Positions 38,698-40,180 of a stretch of DNA of 64,000 nucleotides are shown here, one piece after another. How positions within the stretch are numbered: position 1 is the first letter of the stretch; each line of letters opens with the position of its first letter. The notes under the pieces are model-generated. The model was not told the origin of the DNA, searched no databases, and was given only the letters and a program-made list of their open reading frames with translations. This stretch comes from Ponticaulis sp. GTDB lineage: Bacteria; Pseudomonadota; Alphaproteobacteria; Caulobacterales; Hyphomonadaceae. Both the position numbers and the translations under genes were made by a program. The stretch covers positions 372,001 through 436,000 of the forward strand of contig NZLU01000046.1 in NCBI GenBank assembly GCA_002692725.1, written 5' to 3'.

Positions 38698-38718
38698 GAA
38701 TCCTGCTAGATAGGATTC
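38698..38718. repeat. Inverted repeat with two GANTC sites ahead of the small ORF
   Basis: GAATCCT and AGGATTC form a seven-base inverted repeat around GCTAGAT. Each arm contains one GANTC (GAATC at 38698-38702, GATTC at 38714-38718), the CcrM methylation target. The centre and right arm contain TAGATA, a possible -10 hexamer for the transcript that follows. Confidence 0.6.
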
Positions 38719-38733
38719 AGGTTTAGCAATCGA

Positions 38734-38747
38734 AAGGAGGTGATCCA
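38734..38747 (+). promoter_or_regulatory. Maximal Shine-Dalgarno sequence
   Basis: AAAGGAGGTGATCC is complementary to 14 consecutive bases of the usual 16S rRNA 3' end. GGAGG lies seven bases before the ATG. CCTCC at 38811-38815, inside the same ORF, could pair with it. Confidence 0.8.
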
Positions 38748-38828
38748 ATGTCGAGTGAGATACTTCAGGTGAAACAAGTGCTTGTGAGTGTGATCGGCGA
38801 GTTGGAGCAGCCTCCGGTTCGCAGATGA
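38748..38828 (+). CDS. 26-residue small protein or leader peptide, unrecognised
   Basis: A 26-codon frame beginning MSSEILQVKQVLVSVIGELE and ending QPPVRR, directly after the longest Shine-Dalgarno match in the window. The peptide has an amphipathic helical pattern and no membrane segment. I do not recognise a family. The next gene downstream is on the opposite strand, so this is not a leader of a following gene. The ORF, three hairpins and a terminator make up a self-contained transcript of roughly 190 bases. Confidence 0.55.
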   Translation: MSSEILQVKQVLVSVIGELEQPPVRR

Positions 38829-38838
38829 CGTCCGCGTC

Positions 38839-38901
38839 TGCTTTGTGACAAAGCATTTGAGACACCATGTCTCACGGAAGCCGCGCCGAGCGCGGCTTTT
38901 T
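38839..38901 (+). ncRNA. Three tandem hairpins, the last a terminator
   Basis: Three perfect stems follow one another with gaps of two to three bases: TGCTTTG/CAAAGCA with loop TGA (38839-38855), TGAGACA/TGTCTCA with loop CCA (38858-38874), and AAGCCGCGC/GCGCGGCTT with loop CGA (38878-38898), ending in a T-tract. The third is a Rho-independent terminator. Together with the preceding small ORF they suggest a structured or dual-function small RNA. It matches no RNA family I know. Confidence 0.55.
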
Positions 38902-38917: not shown

Positions 38918-40180
38918 CTAAAACTGGCTGAGATGATCCAGTGCGGCATTCATCGGGCCATCCTGGCCTTCGTCTGACCGGGCATCGGCATAGTTGAAAT
39001 AAGTGCGCGGACGGAAGAACTCTCTTGGCGTTCCATCCATATGATAGAGACGCTCCGTGGTGAGCTTTACCGTGACACCGGTCTGTTTCAGTCGGTGCTC
39101 AGTGATCCCACCCAGCAGTCCGGCCATATTTGTGCCGAAGCTTGCTGCGCCAATCGCGTCGAGGCCAACCGTCAGCCCCTCGCCCATGCTCGCCGTCCAG
39201 CGTCCGGAAATCACGGCAACAGGTCGGGTAAACTGCCAGCCACGCGGTGTAACTTCTTCTGTCCATGACCGACGCACACCGAAATCGCGCTCATCGCTTG
39301 GAATTTCATGACGCTGATAGGCAGTCGCCTTTGACACAAACCGCGAGAGAATCCCGCGCGCAATCAGCGTGTCGCCACCGCTTGCCGTATCGCGCAAATC
39401 CAGAACCAGACCATCAACGGACTGCAGCGTGTTCAACGCATAGTCAAAGGCCGGAATCGTTTGCGGATAGCTTAGGCTGTCATTGAACCGGATCACGCCA
39501 AACCGGCGTCCGGCATGGCTGACCGATTTCACACTCAGCATGCCCGTGTCCCGGCGGAGACGCGAATAATAAAGCGTCGGCAATTCCACCGTCCAGTCGA
39601 GCCCATTGGCATAAAGGCCAATCCGGCGGATCCAACCCTTTCGGCCAGCCGTCATCACACGCGCGGCATAAGCGCGACGCTCATCATTCAGCGCATACGG
39701 GTAATAGCCAATGAAGTCAGCGACGGCCTGCGTAACCGGTTTACCTTCAAGCGAGGTAATTACAGTGCCCGGACGAATGCCGACCAATTGGGCTGGCGAC
39801 CCCTGCCGCACATCCATGATCTCATAGCCATTGCAGGTCTTTTCCACCCACATATCGGCAAAGCTCGGAACAAGCGCATAGTCGTCAATCAGGCCGGTTC
39901 CGGTGATGGAGTGATGATCGTACAGCGCATGAAACGCATTCTGACAGAACGCAATCAGATCATTACGTGTATTCAGATACGGAATTTGAGTTTGGAGTTC
40001 GGCGCGAACGGGAATGAAGCCATTCGGATACCGATAGGAATAGGCAAAACGCGCCTCAATCAGGTCGATCAACTCATAAGCATCGCTCTGTACACCGGCG
40101 CGCACATTTGGGTCGACATAGGTGTTGCCCCATGTGCCCATTGTGTTTGACGAAACAAGCGTTAGCCCACTCACTTCCAC
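38918..40180 (-). CDS. S41 family peptidase
   Basis: A 420-residue C-terminal-processing-type serine protease. It has a PDZ-like segment (DVRQGSPAQLVGIRPGTVI) and the S41 core: RFGVIRFNDSLSY, LVLDLRDTASGG, and the nucleophile region RWTASMGEGLTVGLDAIG. The start is GTG at 40180, directly preceded by an in-frame stop. No signal peptide is seen in front of the catalytic part, which is unusual for this mostly periplasmic or exported family; ATG 40141 is an alternative start and also lacks a signal. Confidence 0.8.
   Translation of the reverse strand: MEVSGLTLVSSNTMGTWGNTYVDPNVRAGVQSDAYELIDLIEARFAYSYRYPNGFIPVRAELQTQIPYLNTRNDLIAFCQNAFHALYDHHSITGTGLIDDYALVPSFADMWVEKTCNGYEIMDVRQGSPAQLVGIRPGTVITSLEGKPVTQAVADFIGYYPYALNDERRAYAARVMTAGRKGWIRRIGLYANGLDWTVELPTLYYSRLRRDTGMLSVKSVSHAGRRFGVIRFNDSLSYPQTIPAFDYALNTLQSVDGLVLDLRDTASGGDTLIARGILSRFVSKATAYQRHEIPSDERDFGVRRSWTEEVTPRGWQFTRPVAVISGRWTASMGEGLTVGLDAIGAASFGTNMAGLLGGITEHRLKQTGVTVKLTTERLYHMDGTPREFFRPRTYFNYADARSDEGQDGPMNAALDHLSQF

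Follow-up and report, generated by a model that had tools for sequence, protein, structure and literature searches.

Why would a bacterial genome carry, in front of a reading frame of 26 codons and with no same-strand gene behind it, a sequence complementary to the whole 3′ tail of 16S rRNA? This question is raised by a locus on the forward strand of a 64-kb stretch of a Ponticaulis sp. genome, referred to below as the window, along which all positions are counted. The original prediction, drawn from the letters of this stretch, recognized a perfect anti-16S match of 14 bases, the short ORF and three perfect hairpins with three-base loops, the last one a terminator. It offered three readings of the locus: a dual-function sRNA, a ribosome-binding sponge or a highly translated micropeptide. 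Here, we followed these elements through the relatives of the locus.

A candidate small RNA gene led by the complement of the 16S rRNA tail

The 14-mer AAAGGAGGTGATCC is found at positions 38733–38746 of the plus strand and is the exact complement of the 16S tail. Its second-best site in the 64-kb window has two mismatches, and it occurs exactly once in the 3.89-Mb genome, where simple arithmetic expects about 0.03 occurrences and the reversed control gave none. We read nine 16S 3′ ends in eight genomes of Alphaproteobacteria, including one from the genus of the window, and each runs TGGATCACCTCCTTTCT; the tail assigned to the window is taken from these relatives, since its own 16S was not found. 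The complement is therefore 16 nt long rather than 14, GAAAGGAGGTGATCCA at 38732–38747 of the plus strand, and its duplex with the 16S tail has a predicted energy of −30.6 kcal/mol. We refer to it as an extended Shine-Dalgarno sequence (SD).

The 26-codon ORF follows directly, at 38748–38828 of the plus strand (MSSEILQVKQVLVSVIGELEQPPVRR), as had been predicted; its peptide matches no Pfam family at E ≤ 0.01. All three hairpins are present downstream on the same strand: hairpin 1 (GCTTTG-TGA-CAAAGC, 6 bp with a 3-nt loop, 38840–38854), hairpin 2 (TGAGACA-CCA-TGTCTCA, 7 bp, 38858–38874) and a predicted intrinsic terminator of 11 bp with a CGA loop and a T tail (38876–38900). The conservation in relatives on which the original prediction depended was found for the SD, the ORF and the terminator; hairpin 1 is absent from all six Ponticaulis genus mates that were compared. 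Of the 158 aligned relatives, 156 have a called terminator-like hairpin; the set retained two sequences without one, and a few calls are wrong by eye (L094, L104).

Upstream, an SD-anchored alignment of 64 lineages displays a conserved CAAC-rich leader and weak signals resembling −10 and −35 elements, T-rich at −50 to −48 and with an A at −25. The position of these signals points to CTAGAT (38706–38711, plus strand) as the probable −10 element; a sigma-70 consensus search around these positions gave no match. The 5′ end of the RNA probably lies near 38718, since 38698–38715 resembles a promoter. An inverted repeat, GAATCCT-GCTAGAT-AGGATTC (38698–38719), spans the probable −10 element and is kept in part within the genus. 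We rejected this palindrome as a conserved hairpin, as it is missing from L003 (the same place as L197).

On the same strand, the locus is preceded by a FemAB-like/GNAT gene and a HIT gene, and the next gene 3′ of it (38918–40180) lies on the minus strand and encodes an S41 peptidase. The original statement that no same-strand gene follows was thus correct for the window. In 20 of the 64 lineages the closest ORF downstream shares the strand of the element, in 37 it has the opposite orientation and in 7 none was called; every neighbour family is confined to four lineages at most (mechanically called ORFs of at least 90 aa). In Pelagibacterium luteolum (L063:5129-5280), an FMN riboswitch is located shortly 3′ of the element. 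From its predicted parts, the locus is a stand-alone small RNA gene of ~185 nt with its own terminator and an inferred promoter.

Distribution and relationship to CC2171

By blastn, homologues were detected in 41 of 61 genomes, the window's own counted. The exact pattern AAAGGAGGTGATCN{1,3}ATGTCNAGTSAG is present in 71 of 398 genomes of the order. The shorter AAAGGAGGTGATCN{1,3}TGTC matches 65 of 398 genomes of the phylum, 64 of them from the window's class; the single match beyond the class has a different spacing and may be due to chance, and the reversed pattern matches one genome. In a sample of the class with one mismatch permitted, 63 of 289 genomes were positive and the control gave none. 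Given the strictness of the patterns, these genome counts are lower bounds. At least 119 stretches were retrieved when genomes with names were scanned, including some from Ponticaulis, Henriciella, Hyphomonas, Pelagibacterium, Rhizobium, Stappia and Parvularcula. Among the matches listed are some MAGs carrying Gammaproteobacteria titles; all these names are those of the record titles. We did not find any match in the plasmid collection searched and rejected the idea of a plasmid-borne element.

The element occurs nearly throughout as one copy per genome, with two copies in G321 and in G423. Those of G321 are ~2 kb apart, and those of G423 (L259 and L260) differ in subtype, MSHC versus MSHG.

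At gathering thresholds, an Rfam scan of the window returned two tRNAs and nothing else. At a relaxed threshold, RF01867 (CC2171, a Caulobacter sRNA) aligned to the window over all 159 model positions with 28.9 bits (E ~1e-4; mean accuracy 0.58). The gathering cut-off of this model, 75 bits, is reached neither by the window nor by any of 20 other family loci. Among 34 chosen genomes of the order, nine exceed the cut-off and 23 match at E ≤ 0.1; the sequences of the nine are of the type AAAGGAGGTGATCCAGTGTCTCAT, which some of them carry with one or two changes. As 5 of 14 control genomes also match, the weaker matches are partly due to chance; one control genome is over the cut-off (Caulobacter vibrioides listed first). 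The full-length matches form a graded series (60.9, 49.2, 40.6 and 35.5 bits), so that intermediates within the order connect the two ends, and the architecture of the window element is collinear with that of the model, with AAAGGAGGUGAUCC and a start codon at the 5′ end, then the long-range helix P1 described below, then the terminator. CC2171 has in common with the window the 16S-tail complement followed by a start codon, the terminator and, in its Rfam consensus, P1; it differs in that P1 and the start of the peptide are wholly replaced (CATTGTC/GACAATG versus GTGAGATA/TGTCTCAC). The window element is therefore not a member by Rfam's rule, 28.9 bits lying below the 75-bit cut-off, and from sequence and architecture we consider it a distant homologue. 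The whole would form a superfamily spanning the class, with CC2171 as its Caulobacter branch.

Seventeen papers contain the name CC2171 or RF01867, and among the 15 of them that were listed, two deal with this RNA. The available lines of the Rfam record describe an sRNA gene and name no ORF. The portion of PMC11701678 at hand lists CC2171 in a table row on structure revision. In the passages available from PMC5596092, a Mesorhizobium sRNA, MH_s33, is labelled CC2171, and RNA-seq products are reported for 34 of 35 non-riboswitch candidates. The main text of PMC4117421 makes no mention of CC2171, and neither do the retrieved passages of PMC5082802 and PMC11005374.

A maintained frame with a drifting peptide

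For the tests below, 205 unique relatives were reduced to 94 clusters whose terminator was recognizable and whose ORF did not exceed 45 codons, a limit that places L263 (58-codon ORF) outside the set. The frame is open over codons 6–17 in 91 of the 94 clusters, compared with 53 and 73 for the other two frames. It starts with ATG in 70 clusters, GTG in 23 and TTG in one, runs for 14–35 codons with a mode of 26, and in all 94 clusters ends at least 22 nt 5′ of the terminator stem. ORFs of 14 codons, of VSYLKRCHLAGIAR type, are carried by L242–L244 (family code f11, genomes of 6–8 Mb).

The amino acids behave differently. In 47 close pairs without shared members, many of them from one large Hyphomonadaceae cluster, we counted 90, 96 and 102 changes at codon positions 1, 2 and 3, with a pN/pS of 0.76. 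This value does not indicate purifying selection on the amino acids, although it is compatible with a mild constraint. Codons 2–5, which hold P1, are the exception to this drift, with differences at 2.7% of sites in the same pairs. Since frame, start and stop are kept, initiation and termination seem to be maintained, with little to hold back the drift of the peptide. The suggestion of a micropeptide valued for its sequence is not supported by these even substitutions, and we rejected a peptide-driven function on the same pN/pS.

A ribosome site predicted to be exposed

We inspected 18 matches of the RF01867 covariance model (L181–L197 and L199, leaving out the window's own L198 and the weaker L200–L210). 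The 14-mer is exact in 12 of them, with one change in five and two changes in one. This invariance is partly selected in, because most homologues came from a pattern that fixes the SD, and the covariance model likewise favours it. Among L062–L180, the base 5′ of AAAGGAGG is G in 97 of 100 loci and A in 14 of 19 gamma-like loci, a group put together manually on the basis of titles and resemblance; two loci with gamma-type titles and a G, L147 and L157, were counted with the others. The A may track a different 16S tail, which we mention as a lead only: the search for 16S 3′ ends gave a match in 8 of 40 genomes and in none of the 16 gamma-like ones.

It was originally proposed that CCTCC inside the ORF could mask the SD. 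This motif lies in a mini-hairpin seen by eye, GGAGCAGCCTCC (38804–38815, plus strand), which covers the codons for E-Q-P. Complementarity to the 16-nt SD is indeed enriched within the element (16.72 versus 15.25 in shuffles, sd 0.25), without enrichment for a reversed SD (14.74 versus 14.79). The accessibility of the site, however, is not lower than in shuffles and is even somewhat higher. In the 94 clusters, with 12 shuffles each that preserve dinucleotides as in the complementarity test, the unpaired probability is 0.318 versus 0.283 for GGAGG and 0.523 versus 0.398 for the start codon. For the 5′ strand of P1, it is 0.353 versus 0.42, the observed strand being the more paired in 66 clusters. 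Despite the enriched complementarity, folding thus led us to reject masking as the main purpose, and the predicted picture is rather that of a ribosome site exposed with a brake directly behind it than of a hidden one. The mini-hairpin GGAG-CAGC-CUCC itself is out of the ORF frame in L011; in L066, L136 and L151, where it shows changes of the GGGGCAACCCC type, it follows the stop codon (all by eye).

Segments resembling or matching the 16S tail occur in a few relatives. L245–L250 (family code f16, probably Rhodobacteraceae) have 18-codon ORFs, and in L245–L249 CACCTCC, a near copy of the anti-SD seen by eye, stands just upstream of the terminator and could pair with their own SD. In L257 (family code f9, probably a sphingomonad), GGATCACCTCC, an exact part of the 16S tail, is found 3′ of the ORF.

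Two predicted rival helices

In the minimum-energy fold of the window RNA (whole-fold z-score −3.1), GTGAGATA at 38755–38762, corresponding to ORF nucleotides 8–15 in codons 3–5, pairs with TGTCTCAC at 38868–38875, which adjoins the terminator. This predicted long-range helix on the plus strand, P1, also appears, built from other bases, in the consensus structure that Rfam gives for CC2171. When the ORF start of each of the 94 clusters is paired with the segment preceding the terminator, the best uninterrupted duplex scores 14.65 on average; mispaired partners score 11.94 (sd 0.28), and none of 1000 partner swaps reached 14.65. A 5-bp core is present at the expected place in 72 of the 94 clusters (mean 26 and maximum 39 in 2000 swaps); because 43 of the 94 share GTGAG, the covariation rests on the remaining ones. 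With one cluster per sequence class, the core is found in 12 of 30 (mean 2.8, maximum 8), and a test with 22 sequence classes gave 0 of 2000 swaps. The core is missing from its standard place in 22 of the 94 clusters, several of which pair with a bulge or a shift by eye, and 15 of the 30 classes are without any paired cluster. The paired variants include GTGAG/CTCAC, GTCAG/CTGAC, CATTGTC/GACAATG, CATAGTT/GACTATG and CACCAAA/TTTGGTG, as well as CATGGTC/GACCATG, GTGTTT/AAACAC, CGAGATC/GATCTCG and ATGAGATT/AATCTCAT. By these comparisons, the predicted P1 covaries across relatives. Covariation, for which the original prediction had looked to the hairpins, appears in a long-range helix absent from that prediction; hairpin 1 is not conserved.

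The 3′ strand of P1 has a second potential partner. In the window, most of it belongs to hairpin 2, a local helix that we call P2; P2 excludes P1 and is contained in the free centroid fold of the window RNA. Among the 72 clusters having P1, the best upstream local partner of this strand scores 11.97, against 10.11 (sd 0.23) and a maximum of 10.62 in 200 shuffles that preserve base content only. Local pairing of at least 5 bp was found in 43 of these 72. P2 is strong in many MSSE types (GAGGTTG/CGATCTC, TGAGACA/TGTCTCA, GAGCC/GGCTC) and weak, with 3–5 bp, in most Caulobacter-type sequences. When the initiation region is held open, the minimum-energy fold of the window loses P1, leaves its 3′ strand unpaired and does not form P2. 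The predicted helices P1 and P2 are mutually exclusive, which is the design of a switch.

Ribosome-gated switch or static RNA?

The evolution of the sequences among relatives speaks for the 16S complement, the start codon, the open frame, P1, its rivalry with P2 and the stand-alone position as features of this candidate RNA. Drift affects the peptide, the interior of the RNA and its neighbours, and extends to the letters of P1; P1 and the terminator are preserved as structures, and the 16S complement and the start codon stay. The constant partner in trans would therefore most simply be the ribosome. The best explanation that we can offer, and one that we hold tentatively, is a ribosome-gated small RNA with two states, whose conserved partner is the 30S subunit. 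The 16-nt leader, complementary to the free 16S tail over its full length and set beside an accessible start codon, would recruit the 30S subunit. P1 would lock ORF nucleotides 8–15 to the pre-terminator strand, acting as a brake in the path of 30S entry. A 30S or 70S particle at the start site would exclude P1, and the freed 3′ strand could refold as P2. The short ORF would then be translated and the ribosome released, the peptide sequence hardly mattering. The output would be ribosome engagement itself or the fate of the RNA, through its stability or the availability of the freed 3′ strand, and neither a conserved peptide nor the control of a gene further downstream. Binding of the 30S subunit in the cell, gating and any output are what we infer here. 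The weakness of P2 in most Caulobacter types counts against gating, as does the window fold with the initiation region held open, in which P2 does not form, and a static sRNA fold would keep P1 too. Among the readings offered originally, the dual-function sRNA and the ribosome-binding sponge appear to fit best.

The second of these could also stand without a switch. The 16-nt duplex would hold free 30S subunits and P1 would be a permanent brake against their leaving. The effect would be to keep these subunits from initiating, or else to protect the 3′ end of 16S rRNA against RNase R and similar exonucleases. This tail-cap version is made concrete by the protection of 30S subunits against RNase R by an SD oligonucleotide in vitro, as described in the accessible part of PMC10901742. 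It would agree with the fact that the 16S-tail complement beside the start codon is the sole long sequence common to the clusters, and with a start codon more open and following codons more paired than in shuffles. However, the open frame and the choice of start codons argue that ribosomes do initiate and terminate, and with one gene copy per genome, titration of 30S subunits would demand very strong expression. We consider such a sponge or cap, although a main rival of our reading, unlikely.

Improbable too, in our opinion, is an ordinary base-pairing sRNA with incidental translation, in which a static scaffold would present a variable loop to mRNAs. Rfam files CC2171 as an sRNA gene, and a stand-alone gene with a terminator is what one would expect of it. 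Nevertheless, this proposal leaves the 16-nt SD and the maintained frame unexplained, and the interior and both P1 strands are replaced between lineages. We saw no conserved mRNA-pairing seed in an alignment of the 58 terminator-bearing representatives out of 63 (L030, L094, L189, L193 and L196 left out).

A bolder proposal, which we regard as quite improbable, is that of a class-wide housekeeping RNA. It would cap the whole 16S tail and lead the subunit through a mock initiation and termination on an ORF without meaning, whereby subunits would be tested, stored or protected, with the P1/P2 exchange reporting the docking of a competent 30S subunit.

Very unlikely is a gene whose product is the micropeptide itself, preceded by an unusually strong ribosome site. 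It would account for the maintained start codon and frame, the modal length and the recurrence of the MSSE start and the EQP motif. Yet substitutions fall evenly over codon positions, the peptides are unrelated in sequence and variable in length, MSSE is part of P1, and the hairpin holding EQP persists even where it is out of frame. Finally, a transcription attenuator or leader of a downstream gene, which the leader-like ORF, the alternative hairpins and the terminator bring to mind, was rejected as extremely improbable, since across the 64 lineages there is no conserved same-strand gene downstream and no recurrent neighbour family, the next ORF being on the other strand in the window and in 37 of the 57 lineages with a called neighbour.

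Comparison with known systems

If our reading of the sequences is correct, CC2171 widens from a Caulobacter sRNA to one branch of an RNA found across Alphaproteobacteria. This RNA has a maintained throw-away ORF, complementarity to the full 16S tail and a covarying helix that may lock the start of translation. It raises the possibility of an RNA whose job would be to engage the small ribosomal subunit and not some mRNA. The Caulobacter branch permits direct tests in a standard laboratory organism.

Other RNAs, such as 6S RNA and the CsrB-type decoys, mimic the natural ligand of a core machine; their targets are RNA polymerase and CsrA. Closer to the site discussed here, the consulted text of PMC13009471 describes extended-SD initiation in Staphylococcus aureus, in which the SD pairing is likewise lengthened towards the start codon. 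By the estimate given there, extended pairing serves about 30% of initiation sites, and the structure shows two extra pairs, whereas here one RNA per genome could pair with the whole tail. In Sinorhizobium meliloti, rnTrpL/peTrpL is also a small RNA with a translated short ORF, presented in the available portion of PMC10117765 as the product of a tryptophan attenuator with a functional leader peptide; the element described here has neither a downstream gene nor a conserved peptide. The SisA-D RNAs of Caulobacter, as far as the available passages of PMC12559287 go, resemble it as an alphaproteobacterial sRNA family marked by an SD/anti-SD-type sequence. Their motif is an anti-SD thought to pair with mRNAs, in contrast to the present element, which has the SD itself, matching the 16S rRNA.
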